64,000 nt of DNA from Vulcanisaeta moutnovskia 768-28 (GCF_000190315.1 NC_015151.1:1798001-1862000); one strand, 5' to 3'; counted from the first letter of the stretch, positions 40,209 through 46,376 are shown. Program-made: numbers and translations. Notes: generated by a model from the sequence alone, not told the origin.

Positions 40209-41771
40209 CTATAATCCTAAGTACTTATTTATTACTTCATCAATATTGTTTACATTTCGTAAATCTATATTCATAATCTTTGATGGCACTGGAATAGCTA
40301 AGTAGTCATCTTCTAACAGCCTTGTCCAAGTCTCTGAGATTCTCCTACCAAATACTTTTATTGTTTCTTTAAATATTGATGAGTTATACCAAGCAGCAAT
40401 TAATGGATTATTAGTCTTTATTACGTAGAAGTTCTTTGATGCACATAAAGGTCTTTCTGAATAATTGGCAATGACCTTATTTCTCTCTAGATCTATCTTA
40501 TCGTGAATAAATATATATCCATGGGGTTTCTTAACCTGAAGTTGTCTCCAAACATGCTGATACCACCTACTCCCAAACTTCAAAGCCGGTATGTTTAAGC
40601 CCTCGCCCCATTCTACGTATTTCCCTAAGTCACCCTTGGGTTCCTCGGTTATTGCTAAGACGTAATATTCAGGGTCACTTATATAAATATTATCATTGTA
40701 ATACTCAGGCTTCCTTAAGCACTTAACCAAGTATTTCCTGGGTATTACAAGTTTTGTACCATTACTCCTATTGCTTATAATAATTGATGACTCATCCTCT
40801 CTCACAATAGCCCAGTGGGCATTAGGAATGAAGAAGAAGTCCGGGCCATACATCTCAACGCCTCTGGCAATTTCATGTTTATTTAAATAACGTAATAAGC
40901 CATTATCCAATGCTCTCTCTATAATTGAGATAAGCATGCTCGCTCTTTCATAATTAAATAGGCTGAGCCAATTCCTATCTGCAAAAGCAGGCAGCTTTTG
41001 CAGATTTATTGTACCAGTTTTCCTTAACTTTCCTTCATAATAGTAAATCTCCGTCTCTACGTTTGAGCCATCAATAAAGCCTATTAATCCGCTTTTCTTC
41101 CTGGCAAATATTATCAATTCCTTAAAGCCACTACCATCACTAAATGACGGGGTAATCCTATTCTCCACAAGTCCAATCACGTCATACCTCGACTTTAGTA
41201 ATTTCTTAGCACCTTTACCCTGCTCTGTATAGAACGTGGATGCAGGTATCACGAGGATTACATAACCACCATCCTTAAGTATGTAGTCTATCAAGAAGAA
41301 GGAAAGGACGTGAAGGCCAGGGTCCCTTCTCACAATAAGCTTACCATAACCCATTGAGTCCATCAACCTTATTAATTCATCTCTATTACGAACTAAGTGC
41401 CACCTAACGAAGGGCGGGTTCGTAATAATGAGGTCAGCCCTATAACTCCATGCAATCTTAAAGGTATCGCCACATACTACTTCGACATTATCATATAGTG
41501 AGGATAAAATTTTACGAGTTAACTCACAAGGTCCTTTGTTGATCTCTATTGCTATTACCTTCTTAGGCTTAATAAGGTCATTAATAGCTGAGAGAGTGGC
41601 GCCAGAGCCTGCGAACGGATCCATAACAATTATATTTTTTCTGTAATCTTCACTTAATTCCTTAAGAAAATTCCTAATTACGGCTAAGCCATCACGGCTT
41701 GTATAATATGACGAAGTACTCTTCCTATCTACACTCCTCTGAATCTCATACTGCTCATCAATTAAATACAT
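40209..41771 (-). CDS. DNA N6-adenine methyltransferase (TaqI-like)
   Basis: About 520 aa. Motif I is VMDPFAGSGATLSAI, motif IV is IITNPPFVRWH, followed by a large target-recognition half (VEMYGPDFFFIPNAHWAIV). It would methylate adenine in DNA using SAM. The neighbouring restriction-enzyme gene is decayed, so this is an orphan modification enzyme. The frame opens at GTG 41783; ATG 41771 with GGTGAGG a few nt upstream is preferred. The AT-rich surroundings suggest acquisition by transfer. Confidence 0.85.
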   Translation of the reverse strand: MYLIDEQYEIQRSVDRKSTSSYYTSRDGLAVIRNFLKELSEDYRKNIIVMDPFAGSGATLSAINDLIKPKKVIAIEINKGPCELTRKILSSLYDNVEVVCGDTFKIAWSYRADLIITNPPFVRWHLVRNRDELIRLMDSMGYGKLIVRRDPGLHVLSFFLIDYILKDGGYVILVIPASTFYTEQGKGAKKLLKSRYDVIGLVENRITPSFSDGSGFKELIIFARKKSGLIGFIDGSNVETEIYYYEGKLRKTGTINLQKLPAFADRNWLSLFNYERASMLISIIERALDNGLLRYLNKHEIARGVEMYGPDFFFIPNAHWAIVREDESSIIISNRSNGTKLVIPRKYLVKCLRKPEYYNDNIYISDPEYYVLAITEEPKGDLGKYVEWGEGLNIPALKFGSRWYQHVWRQLQVKKPHGYIFIHDKIDLERNKVIANYSERPLCASKNFYVIKTNNPLIAAWYNSSIFKETIKVFGRRISETWTRLLEDDYLAIPVPSKIMNIDLRNVNNIDEVINKYLGL

Positions 41772-41783
41772 TAGATTCCTCAC

Positions 41784-42088
41784 CTTATAACTTTATTAAT
41801 TTTAAATCCCTGGATTTTATAGTTTCCGTTGAGAAATACGTATTTTTCTCTCAATTATTTAACCACATTTCCTCATATTCAGGGTTAATATTCCTCATTA
41901 AACACTAAATTAGGCGCATCATCATTACACGGGCAGTTTAACAAAAATAATTGTGAAGATACAAAATCCTATGGGTATTAAGGTCCTAAGTTGGTTACTA
42001 CTATTAAGTATTAGTAGGAATGAAAAAAGTAACACGGTAACTACCAGTGTAAAATCATTGAAACAAAATATGGAAGAGGTGACGATTG
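41784..42088. other. Gap between methyltransferase and ATPase operon
   Basis: About 300 nt, AT-rich. Contains the methyltransferase promoter region (minus strand) and the 52-codon ORF starting at 41971. No RNA gene or repeat seen; a minus-strand ATGATGA at about 41926 lacks the matching D boxes. Confidence 0.4.
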
Positions 42089-42129
42089 ATGTCGAGCTCG
42101 AGCTTGAACCTACTGAAGGTAAGCAATAA
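41971..42129 (+). CDS. Small ORF (52 aa) leading the HerA operon
   Basis: ATG 41971 begins MGIKVLSWLLLLSISRNEKS and ends EVTIDVELELEPTEGKQ. It overlaps the start of the first ATPase by 41 nt. A hydrophobic N-terminus and an acidic C-terminus are visible, but no family is recognised. Evidence for real coding is only its length, the weak TATA-like TTTAACAAAAAT about 30 nt upstream, and the position. The ATPase Shine-Dalgarno lies inside this ORF. Confidence 0.35.
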   Translation: MGIKVLSWLLLLSISRNEKSNTVTTSVKSLKQNMEEVTIDVELELEPTEGKQ

Positions 42130-43807
42130 GTTAATCATCGGTCTACGCATCAAGAAGGAACTTGATGCTTGGGACCTAGTGCAAGTGCTCAATGGTTTGA
42201 GGATTACCGTAATAAAGGATGAGGTGAGCTCCATAATACTACATACGCCAACCCACATCCCATTGTTCACTGGTATACATAGAGATAGGATAGGGCATTT
42301 GCTTAATAAGTGGGTTGATTACGTGGAACCACTACCATCAGGAATAACACTTAGCGTAATCGACAATGTATCGATGAGTTTCTCGGAGGTTAAGGTCAAG
42401 GCAATACCAGAGGTTCAGGTATCCACACCCACTATAATAACAATGTGCAAGCTAGGCGATAACCAAGTGAGGTACTCATTATTCCTAAGAGGAAGTACCC
42501 ATGGAAAAACTGACATACTCTCATGCAATAATAAGGCATTTCTACCGCAGCTCAGGGATAACATAGACCTAGCCCTCAAACCGTCACCAAAGCCAGGGCA
42601 TATGTTCATGACAAAACACTATCCAATAGATATAGACCTCACGAGACACTTGATAGTGCTTGGCGCCACAGGCTCGGGAAAAACCACGCTCGTGAAATTA
42701 CTAATAAACAATGCCCTCCAAAAAGGCATGTTTAATAAGATCGTAATCTTCGATCCAACAGGTGAATACTCGCTATACTTAATGGGTCGCGGTTACGTGG
42801 CCATACCCGGCATAGACATAGCGGTTAATCCACTGACGCTACCACGGCATAGAGCTAGTGAACTACTTGCAATGGCCATTCAAGCGGCTGCGTTCCTGTA
42901 TGGCGAGAACGATAATGGCGGATTCTCATTCATTCAGTTAGAGGTTCTTGAAAAGGCCTTTGAGAGACTTGGCGATAGAAATACCCTGAGGGATCTATAC
43001 ATTGCGTTGAATGATCTTGAGCAAGAGTTGAGGAGGAATGATTATTTGAACGCGATCTCTGCAGTGAGGCGTAGGTTGAGGAAGGTGATGATAACTGCGC
43101 TCATGAGGAATGTGCTAAGCACGAGTGCTATTCAGTCCAGGTTATTAGTCATAAACATGGCGCCACTTTACTTCGTATCTCAGATTACCGCGATAATATT
43201 TACACTAACATTCCTCGAGGTGCTCAGTGGTATGCTCAATAATTCCCTCATTGTTATTGATGAAGCTCATAGAATTCTCAATAGGTATGTGGTTGGTGAG
43301 TCGATTATTGAGAGGTTGATTAGGGAGGGTAGACATGATAGCACTACGCTCGTTCTCGTGACTCAGAATCCACTTGATATTAAGAGGAATGTGCTTGACA
43401 TTGTCGGCCATTACGTGGTCTTTAAATTGAATGGTAAGTCTGCAGTTGAGGCTGCGGATTTGCTGGGTATTGATAAGGACATTGTTATTAAATTGAAGTC
43501 TCTCGAGTTTTATTACCATAGTAATGACATTACCGTTAAGGCATATATAATGGGTAATCCAGGGATTAACTACTTAGTTGCTTCAGGCATTATTTATAGG
43601 AGGTTGCTTGAGAACGTTAATGACCAGGATTATGTTAATTCCATGATTAAGAAATTTGGGCGTTCACTAAGTCCTGTATTGATTCCCCAAGTCATTGAGC
43701 TGGGCAGGAGGTTGGGTTATGATGTCAAATCCATTATTCAATTGGCGGCTAAGAAGGACCCCGAGTACTTCAGGCTGCTTTCTAGGGTGATTACTGGTGA
43801 GGAGTAA
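42089..43807 (+). CDS. HerA/FtsK-superfamily ATPase, first of a pair
   Basis: About 572 aa. N-terminal domain (1-170) precedes the ATPase: Walker A GATGSGKTT at residues 192-200, IVIFDPTGEYSLYLMG, Walker B IVIDEAHRIL near residue 391, and the RLIREGRHDSTTLVLVTQNP region with a sensor/arginine motif. HerA-family ATPases are hexameric DNA translocases in repair, packaging or DNA transfer. No TM segment is obvious. ATG 42089 has GAGGTGA at about 8 nt upstream. It overlaps the next ATPase gene by 11 nt. Confidence 0.8.
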   Translation: MSSSSLNLLKVSNKLIIGLRIKKELDAWDLVQVLNGLRITVIKDEVSSIILHTPTHIPLFTGIHRDRIGHLLNKWVDYVEPLPSGITLSVIDNVSMSFSEVKVKAIPEVQVSTPTIITMCKLGDNQVRYSLFLRGSTHGKTDILSCNNKAFLPQLRDNIDLALKPSPKPGHMFMTKHYPIDIDLTRHLIVLGATGSGKTTLVKLLINNALQKGMFNKIVIFDPTGEYSLYLMGRGYVAIPGIDIAVNPLTLPRHRASELLAMAIQAAAFLYGENDNGGFSFIQLEVLEKAFERLGDRNTLRDLYIALNDLEQELRRNDYLNAISAVRRRLRKVMITALMRNVLSTSAIQSRLLVINMAPLYFVSQITAIIFTLTFLEVLSGMLNNSLIVIDEAHRILNRYVVGESIIERLIREGRHDSTTLVLVTQNPLDIKRNVLDIVGHYVVFKLNGKSAVEAADLLGIDKDIVIKLKSLEFYYHSNDITVKAYIMGNPGINYLVASGIIYRRLLENVNDQDYVNSMIKKFGRSLSPVLIPQVIELGRRLGYDVKSIIQLAAKKDPEYFRLLSRVITGEE

Positions 43808-45905
43808 ATTAATAATCGTCATTATTGCCGCTGTTACTACTTACCTTATTGACCATAGGGTTTACCTGATTATTATTAACACGTTAATACCCCTCATCTT
43901 GATTAAGGACTTAGTTGGATTTAGGGAGCAGGTTAGGTTGTTTATTAATGATGGTGATCCCATCGAATCTGTGAGAATTAGTCTGGCGGGTATTATGGTG
44001 AATGGCAGGGAGTTGGTGGGTCTTAGGGTATTGGGTGTGACCTATACCTTTGATTCTGCGTTCGAGGAGGCACTGGCTAGGGCTCGTGCATTGATTCGCT
44101 TATTTTCAAAGTATAGGATTATCATTCTAGTGTCGTCGAGTGGTGATTACATTATTGGTATTGATAAGGATACTTATCAGGAATTATTTACTGAGCTTGA
44201 ACGATTAAATATTAAGGTTGTTAGAATTAATGGTTTTGAGTTGGCTAATGCTTTGAGGCTGCGTGTTAGGCGCAGGTCATTAGTTAGGCTTCCGCTCCTC
44301 CTCCTATTCATTCCGCTCCTAATTACAGTTTCGGCTTATGTATTTCTTATATTTCCCATATTGTATACTATTTACTCCATTGGTGATTTATCGAGGAGGA
44401 AATTTGTAATTAATGCAGAATTTAACAATGAGGTTGTTCGTGATCTAAGGGCTACGATGGTCATGGATAGTACGATGATCAAGGCTGAGGCATTAAGCTT
44501 TAGGAGCAGGATTTTCCATGCTCATGCAAGTATTTTACTAGTGATATCGAGTAATGATGAGTTAAGGGACTGGGTTAAGAGCACCGCTAGTAGGGTGTAC
44601 AGTAAATTCTTAATGCTTAGGCACGTTAGGTACTTCCTTAGTTATAAGGATTTTGAGGTTACATTGAGAAGGATTCAGCAGGGTGAGGATGTATACTCGC
44701 TCTATCTAGCTAGCACCGCTAGGTTTGACTCCTCATTTAAGTGGAGGTGGGTGCCATCATTGCCGATATCAAAGGTTCTTAATGCTAATTATAGCCGTGC
44801 ATGGTCCATGGAATTGAACCTAGCAACACTCACACCATTCTCACTTCAATTAATTAATGAGAAACGCGGTTTAGCCATAATTGGTAAGGACGTTAACGGT
44901 AGAGATATTTATTGGTCATTCAGTGGGTTGAGTCCTCACACCTTGATAATAGGACCGACTGGCGCGGGAAAGACCACATTGGCCATGAGTATTGCCTATC
45001 AGGTCAAGCGGAGGTTGGGGAGTAATGTTAGATTAATAATAATTGACCCTCATGGGCATGCTAACATCCTTAATAGGTTGATTAGTATAAGGATTATCGA
45101 TTTAGGTAAGAGCAGGGTTGTGACAAATGAATTATCTGCATTAATTGAATCAATACGAATGTCAAATCCACTGCTTTCAATAGGCACCGAAGGTGCATTA
45201 TTACGTATGGCAGGTATTGGTGGTGATGGAATTTCGAGCATTAATGAATTGCTGAAACGGCTTGAGGAATTGTCAAATAATATAATATTGAAGGAGGCAT
45301 ATTATAACCTGTATAATGCGTTGGCGCCCATTATCAATTATTACAATGACTTTGGTAGAAATATGTTACTTAATATACATGATCTGCTTAATGATGACAT
45401 TATTTTCATAATGAAATCAATATTGAGCGATGAATTATTGAGGTATTTAACAATGCTCATACTACTTTCAGTTACTAGAAGAGCGGTTTCTGAATGCCGT
45501 AATCCACCATGCCCATTGAAATACTTAGTAATTATTGATGAGGCTCATAATGTGCTTAAGTTACCGAGTGAATATAGGGTGCTTGGTGTTGATGATCCTG
45601 TGGAGAGGATGTTTAGGGAGTTGAGGAAATTCGGTGTAGCGTTATTCGCATTGATGCAGCCGCCACTCAATGTCCTTAATGAGGGTATTTTAGGGAATGT
45701 AGGTACTACAGTTATTCTATCAGGGAACTCGCAATACGTTTCTCATGTAGCGTCAAGTATTAATGGCATGGACAATGATGACACACTATGGTTATTGAGT
45801 GGGCAATATAGGGCTTTAGTTTTGCACCAGGGTGAGCCTAGGTCTATTAGGGTGTCTCAGCTTTATGTTCCTAGGGAATTAATAATGAAGAAAACTAATG
45901 AGTAA
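43797..45905 (+). CDS. Membrane-anchored HerA/FtsK-superfamily ATPase, second of a pair
   Basis: 702 aa. Hydrophobic segments at about 4-40 and a longer stretch at about 162-195 (LVRLPLLLLFIPLLITVSAY) indicate membrane anchoring. The cytosolic ATPase has Walker A IIGPTGAGKTTLAMS at 386-394, LIIIDPHGHANILN, and Walker B YLVIIDEAHNVL near residue 581, followed by FRELRKFGVALFALMQPP. This build resembles VirB4/CedB-type DNA-transfer ATPases of Crenarchaea, but no import pore or pilin gene is adjacent. Start is GTG 43797, 11 nt inside the previous gene, so translation is coupled. Confidence 0.75.
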   Translation: MRSKLIIVIIAAVTTYLIDHRVYLIIINTLIPLILIKDLVGFREQVRLFINDGDPIESVRISLAGIMVNGRELVGLRVLGVTYTFDSAFEEALARARALIRLFSKYRIIILVSSSGDYIIGIDKDTYQELFTELERLNIKVVRINGFELANALRLRVRRRSLVRLPLLLLFIPLLITVSAYVFLIFPILYTIYSIGDLSRRKFVINAEFNNEVVRDLRATMVMDSTMIKAEALSFRSRIFHAHASILLVISSNDELRDWVKSTASRVYSKFLMLRHVRYFLSYKDFEVTLRRIQQGEDVYSLYLASTARFDSSFKWRWVPSLPISKVLNANYSRAWSMELNLATLTPFSLQLINEKRGLAIIGKDVNGRDIYWSFSGLSPHTLIIGPTGAGKTTLAMSIAYQVKRRLGSNVRLIIIDPHGHANILNRLISIRIIDLGKSRVVTNELSALIESIRMSNPLLSIGTEGALLRMAGIGGDGISSINELLKRLEELSNNIILKEAYYNLYNALAPIINYYNDFGRNMLLNIHDLLNDDIIFIMKSILSDELLRYLTMLILLSVTRRAVSECRNPPCPLKYLVIIDEAHNVLKLPSEYRVLGVDDPVERMFRELRKFGVALFALMQPPLNVLNEGILGNVGTTVILSGNSQYVSHVASSINGMDNDDTLWLLSGQYRALVLHQGEPRSIRVSQLYVPRELIMKKTNE

Positions 45906-45935: not shown

Positions 45936-46376
45936 TCAACTCATTTCATCACCATTAAGTTCATTATTGTCATTATTGTTTAAGTAATATGACCGATCAG
46001 ATACAAAAACCTCAACCTTTTTAGCATTTAAGTTCTTGGCTATATGTTCAAAGGCGGCCATTGGATTTGTATGATTACCACAGGTGTATACGTCAACCGT
46101 TGCATAGGCATGCTCAGGCCAGGTATGGATTGATATATGGCTCTCGGCAACAATGGCGACTACGGAAATTCCACCATTAACCCCAAATTTATAATAAAAT
46201 GTTGATACTACTAATGCACCTGCAATATCTGCAGCCTCTCTAACGATTTTTAGTAAATACATCTCATCCTTAAGTAATTCTCTATTGCAGCCATATAGAT
46301 TTCCATATACGTGTACTCCATACACCAATGCATTCCTTTCCCTACCCCCCAACTCTATTAAGGTTTGGGCTGTCAT
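45936..46376 (-). CDS. speD: S-adenosylmethionine decarboxylase-type proenzyme (SpeD/ArgDC family)
   Basis: 146 aa pyruvoyl enzyme precursor. The self-cleavage site is the Glu-Ser of ESHISIHTWPE, where Ser becomes the pyruvoyl group, followed by ATVDVYTCGNH with the conserved catalytic Cys. In Crenarchaea this family includes both AdoMet decarboxylase and arginine decarboxylase, so the substrate cannot be decided by eye. Start ATG 46376 has a GGGGGAG stretch directly upstream; TATA-like TTTATATAGG lies about 50 nt upstream, so a 20-nt leader is likely. Confidence 0.88.
   Translation of the reverse strand: MTAQTLIELGGRERNALVYGVHVYGNLYGCNRELLKDEMYLLKIVREAADIAGALVVSTFYYKFGVNGGISVVAIVAESHISIHTWPEHAYATVDVYTCGNHTNPMAAFEHIAKNLNAKKVEVFVSDRSYYLNNNDNNELNGDEMS

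Follow-up and report, generated by a model that had tools for sequence, protein, structure and literature searches.

The Ted system, which mediates DNA exchange in Thermoproteales, comprises TedA, TedB and TedC with a HerA-like protein and ParA, and its loci are accompanied by HerA-like genes (PMC9905601). DNA import by the Ced system of Sulfolobales needs two HerA/VirB4-type ATPases, CedB and CedD (PMC11868833). The locus of Vulcanisaeta moutnovskia described here encodes an operon with two ATPases which, as judged from profiles and trees, are paralogous to the two motor ATPases of Ted.

The operon and its surroundings

The analysed window, a stretch of 64,000 nucleotides, comes from a genome assembled as one contig of 2,298,983 bases. 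Its plus strand carries a small ORF and two ATPase genes, overlapping head to tail in a compact three-gene operon. All three ORFs had been proposed at these coordinates in a sequence-only reading and were confirmed there, together with the 11-nt overlap of the ATPase genes. The features of the region are as follows.

40209..41783, minus strand: lone adenine DNA methyltransferase, a neighbour and not a partner; present in 5 of 10 loci, patchy across the genus
41943..41951, plus strand: TATA-like A/T-rich stretch AAAAATAAT, as read from the sequence, with the first ATG about 24 nt downstream
41971..42129, plus strand: small leading gene (52 aa), probable from frame and dN/dS evidence
42089..43807, plus strand: ATPase 1, a soluble HerA/VirB4-superfamily ATPase (572 aa), near the HerA-like ATPase of Ted loci (TedH)
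42662..42685, plus strand: Walker A of ATPase 1 (GATGSGKT), conserved motif
43256..43270, plus strand: ATPase 1, Walker B motif IDEAH; invariant REGRH (43322-43336) and TQ.P motifs come after it
43797-43807, plus strand: overlap of the ATPase genes (11 nt), with the GTG start of ATPase 2 and the TAA stop of ATPase 1
43797..45905, plus strand: ATPase 2, a membrane-anchored TedB-family (VirB4-type) ATPase (702 aa) with a GTG start
43821..43877, plus strand: ATPase 2, residues 9-27, its first hydrophobic stretch, at the same place in TedB
44295..44351, plus strand: ATPase 2, residues 167-185, its second hydrophobic stretch, at the same place in TedB
44952..44975, plus strand: Walker A of ATPase 2 (GPTGAGKT), conserved motif
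45534..45548, plus strand: ATPase 2, Walker B motif IDEAH; an RE.RKFG motif (45615-45635) comes after it
45936..46376, minus strand: S-adenosylmethionine decarboxylase, convergent; a constant flank of the pair and not a partner

The spacing of the TATA-like stretch would fit a leaderless archaeal transcript, and several sister loci also have an AAAAATA-like stretch before the ATG. Scans for sigma-70 promoters and terminators gave counts at chance level, such models not applying to archaea. The start of ATPase 1 was set at the ATG at 42089, kept in 10/10 loci; the TTG chosen by the gene-calling tool lies 3 bases earlier.

The small ORF, described earlier as a 52-codon frame leading the operon, shares 41 nt with the start of the ATPase 1 gene and encodes a product with a short hydrophobic N-terminus and an acidic, beta-like C-terminus. 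Its frame was open in the same register in 10/10 Vulcanisaeta loci, the window included, and the termini were conserved in most of them (MG..VL.WLLLLSIS and EEV.I.VELELE). Outside the overlap, dN/dS was about 0.09-0.45 in the usable pairs with the window, values which are weak by themselves given the short length and saturation. The ORF is probably a real gene because the frame was kept across strongly diverged copies.

The pair had been placed beside restriction-modification DNA. A methyltransferase gene indeed adjoins the operon; it is a lone gene with no recognised restriction gene beside it and, because it is present in just 5/10 loci, it was regarded as incidental and not as a partner of the pair. 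At the other end of the region, positions 1-199 of the window hold the start of a NurA-family gene (C1:1797240-1798199, minus strand), one of five in the genome.

Kinship of the two ATPases

Walker A and B motifs and significant DUF87/HerA-type matches were found in each protein (DUF87 at 4.6e-16 for ATPase 1 and 5.3e-07 for ATPase 2), in line with the earlier assignment of both to HerA/FtsK-type ATPases. The motifs kept in both are Walker A and Walker B, with REGRH in ATPase 1 and RE.RKFG in ATPase 2. AlphaFold predictions made with few homologues reached a pLDDT of 34 and 39 for the two ATPases, too poor to use.

The sequence-only reading had likened ATPase 2 to VirB4/CedB-type ATPases. The VirB4 type held, whereas CedB, the top NCBIfam model for this protein, scored 51 bits against a cut-off of 700, and the precise relative proved to be TedB. 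Comparison with a TedB profile, built from the Ted loci of Pyrobaculum-, Caldivirga- and Thermocladium-type and Vulcanisaeta genomes, gave an hhalign E of 4e-38 over 426 columns; profile-profile values for CedB and CedD were 8e-14 and 6e-15. The N-domain alone (residues 208-372) matched TedB at 1.4e-12, compared with 0.05-0.18 for the N-domains of CedB, CedD and HerA, and the first 200 residues gave no significant profile match. ATPase 2 and TedB also have a common layout, with hydrophobic segments at residues of about 10-30 and 165-200 and Walker A at about 390. Both hydrophobic stretches recurred in 5/5 full-length orthologues, in agreement with the membrane anchoring proposed for this protein. 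In the tree, ATPase 2 stood beside TedB with support of 98/95 (SH-aLRT 96 in a reduced set), not inside the TedB clade: it was sister to 12 TedB rows, all on one side of a branch supported at 100/98. By these comparisons ATPase 2 is neither CedB nor HerA; it belongs to the TedB (VirB4-type) family as a divergent member, a paralogue and not TedB itself.

ATPase 1 consists of a ~180-aa N-domain followed by a RecA-like core. Its only hydrophobic stretch (residues 353-371) falls within the ATPase core, and for this reason the protein is still considered soluble, as first proposed. In profile comparison the core was closest to a Pyrobaculum group (E 2.5e-25) and to TedH, the HerA-like ATPase encoded in Ted loci (E 2.6e-24). 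The tree joined ATPase 1 to the Ted-locus HerA-like group and the Pyrobaculum relatives with support of 95/84, at a point where, as the tool warns, long branches meet; in a reduced tree without the Pyrobaculum group it still joined the Ted-locus ATPase (SH-aLRT 98). Among the N-domains tested, none matched that of ATPase 1 significantly, and an apparent full-length match to CedD was gone when the N-domain was tested alone. On this profile and tree evidence ATPase 1 has, together with some Pyrobaculum proteins, its closest kin in the HerA-like ATPase that Ted loci carry. The AU test rejected a single origin for the two proteins (p 0.008), and with it tandem duplication as the source of the pair.

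Outside the genus, the genes most closely related to ATPase 1 (L159:7179-9501 in the Pyrobaculum-type genome G031, L161:7391-10555 in G026, and L117:2-1868) directly adjoin a gene with a TnpB/Cas12f zinc-ribbon domain (PF07282, 7.6e-8 and 1.9e-13); in L117 the neighbour was assigned to this type by 58% identity. A domesticated TnpB paired with a HerA-like ATPase in those relatives is possible, with chance insertion sequences as the alternative.

Inheritance of the pair and the Ted loci of the genus

The pair is syntenic across Vulcanisaeta: in the sister genomes, too, it has a CobA/SUMT-like gene and an M54 protease upstream and SAM decarboxylase, SIS and PhoH-KH genes downstream; in the most diverged member, G011, the downstream gene order was kept only in part. 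ATPase 2 was traceless in only one of 12 genus members, a MAG with 54% completeness. Frame breaks in several draft genomes were read as sequencing errors because they hit almost every gene of the region. In G011, which is 99% complete, ATPase 2 carries a frameshift after residue ~66 (L047:10162-10185), possibly an assembly error or a sign of a decaying copy. Where unsaturated, dN/dS was 0.11-0.19 for both ATPases and 0.02-0.12 for two neighbours, values by which the ATPase pair is under purifying selection. No orthologue of ATPase 1 was found in 81 genomes of the class, where weaker relatives exist, and none of ATPase 2 in 300 genomes of the phylum at 1e-20; the virus and plasmid collections searched contained no relatives of the pair.

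In the same genome, about 860 kb away from the pair, a Ted locus was recognised at C1:956-992 kb. Its genes were assigned through blast matches in Thermocladium-type loci and in the P. calidifontis-type locus L069, whose pilin fits the signal-peptide description of TedC (PMC9905601).

L041:3336-5429: TedB
L041:8135-8956: ParA
L041:13406-13819: TedC candidate with two TM segments
L040:9137-10414: HerA-like ATPase
L040:11273-15568: TedA-like protein

The TedC candidate was linked through a Thermocladium-type protein located beside TedB; compared directly, it showed no significant match to the P. calidifontis pilin, and a PDB sequence search with it found nothing. Several Ted loci share a conserved protein of 250-300 aa, in most cases encoded next to the HerA-like ATPase (L040:10359-11264, L162:8036-8911, L167:5139-6050, L168:12226-12996 and L069:9901-10656). 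The L040 copy had no Pfam match, and the protein is a possible unrecognised Ted component.

No tedA pore or tedC pilin was recognised around the pair in the window or in sister loci, and at the pair locus the sister genomes showed neither pore nor pilin nor DNA-processing genes. The earlier statement that pore and pilin genes are absent is thus correct for the pair locus and does not extend to the genome, given the distant Ted locus. Four Vulcanisaeta and two Pyrobaculum-type genomes had both TedB and a HerA-like gene in their Ted loci. Ted and the pair co-occurred in 4/4 near-complete Vulcanisaeta genomes, and in sister genera Ted was present without the pair. The Ted cluster of one species, G010 (L164-L165, G010:C1:1222000-1258000), belongs to another lineage: its TedB is 28% identical and its TedC-like protein is nearest to the Pyrobaculum one. 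G010 nevertheless keeps the orphan pair (80% and 59% identity). This case suggests that Ted clusters are exchanged between species.

Proposed function and comparison with known systems

The families of both ATPases, their active-site motifs, the operon structure, genus-wide conservation, purifying selection and the presence of a Ted locus in the genome were established here. ATPases of the VirB4 and HerA families should each form a ring which moves a DNA or protein substrate with ATP. The operon would then encode a paralogue of the two-ATPase motor of Ted that diverged and was inherited vertically. In it, ATPase 2 would form a TedB/VirB4-type ring held in the membrane by its two hydrophobic segments and ATPase 1, kin to the ATPase of Ted loci, a soluble HerA-like ring. 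ATPase 1 may collect or pump cytoplasmic DNA and pass it to, or receive it from, the ring of ATPase 2, which would move the DNA through the membrane. It may do so as an accessory motor in trans, using the TedA pore of the distant locus, or along a route of its own without a pilus. DNA as the substrate, ring formation, the relay and the pore used are all four what we infer. With slightly more confidence than doubt, we regard the pair as a domesticated two-motor membrane DNA translocase, aiding Ted in trans or working without a pilus. In this sense the DNA translocation or uptake system of new composition proposed in the sequence-only reading may still hold.

An accessory role is allowed because Ted co-occurs with the pair in all four near-complete genomes. 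An independent role is allowed as well because the pair is confined to the genus, is indifferent to the Ted lineage and lacks pore and pilin genes. An obligatory complex with one particular Ted is disfavoured because Ted of sister genera does without the pair and the pair is kept in a genome whose Ted is of another lineage. A narrower reading, in which a conjugation-derived two-motor DNA translocase shed its pilin and pore and is now a Ted-independent machine of the genus core, is tentative and rather unlikely.

After duplication, the pair could alternatively have become an independent, FtsK-like chromosomal DNA pump without a pilus, moving the cell's own DNA in segregation, repair or membrane clearing. 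The pair being genus-core and vertically inherited while the Ted locus of one species is of another lineage, the lack of copies in virus and plasmid collections and the lack of a visible pilin or pore gene at the locus all agree with such a pump; the nearest relatives of known context, however, sit in Ted loci, and other Thermoproteales manage without the pair. We consider it unlikely, if worth keeping in mind.

Other tasks of VirB4-family ATPases are pilus assembly and effector secretion, and the VirB4/TedB homology would also suit a motor for protein or pilus export in place of DNA. No pilin or secreted-substrate gene was recognised nearby, however, and ATPase 1 groups with HerA-like proteins, which leaves this function improbable. 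Similarly small is the probability of an anti-virus defence in which the membrane and soluble HerA-like ATPases act on incoming DNA, perhaps with the adenine methyltransferase, as in MADS-like or other HerA defence. The top PADLOC match of both ATPases was mad8 (5e-21 and 8e-21) and that of the methyltransferase was mad2 (5e-23), whereas the methyltransferase is missing from 5/10 loci, the locus has a constant place between housekeeping genes instead of in a variable island, no nuclease partner accompanies it, and the profile matches to TedB and the Ted HerA-like ATPase are strong. A canonical HerA-type end-resection helicase pair working without NurA, an option raised in the sequence-only reading, is very improbable despite the DUF87 central domain of both proteins: neither is HerA by curated cut-off, profile or tree, repair-helicase models with cut-offs of 800-970 gave only 31-43 bits for ATPase 1 and 16-22 bits for ATPase 2, the N-domains do not match HerA-type N-domains of the same genome, and separate HerA-like and NurA genes lie elsewhere.

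Among described systems, MADS provides the best PADLOC match of both ATPases (mad8) and differs in that the methyltransferase of the locus is inconstant, there is no defence island and other components were not seen; with only mad8 and mad2 matches in the PADLOC scan of the ATPases and the methyltransferase, and the latter in 5/10 loci, membership was rejected. The DUF87 ATPase core of both proteins is held in common with HerA-NurA, from which the pair differs by its other N-domains and the lack of a NurA partner; membership was rejected as well, the best HerA-repair model reaching 42.5 bits against 800 and the NurA copies being located elsewhere in the genome.

The likeness to Ted lies in the presence of both ATPase kinds in one gene cluster and in the TedB topology and length of ATPase 2. 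Unlike Ted, the pair locus has no TedA pore, TedC pilin or ParA, ATPase 1 has the extra ~180-aa N-domain, and the operon has a small leading gene of its own; the pair is also genus-restricted, with ATPase 2 outside all sampled TedB sequences. Membership in Ced was rejected, with CedB at 51 bits against 700 (ATPase 2), CedD at 51 bits against 600 (ATPase 1) and no N-domain match. As in Ced, two HerA/VirB4-type ATPases are present, whereas membrane segments occur in both CedB and CedD and in the pair only in ATPase 2.

The compact three-gene operon makes the role of the second ATPase and pilus-less DNA movement by VirB4-type motors testable. The comparison suggests that two paired ATPases, TedB with a HerA-like protein or CedB with CedD, drive the conjugation-like machines of archaea, and that such a motor pair can be duplicated and kept without a pilus. 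By analogy with CedB and CedD of Ced, the two-motor arrangement may be general.
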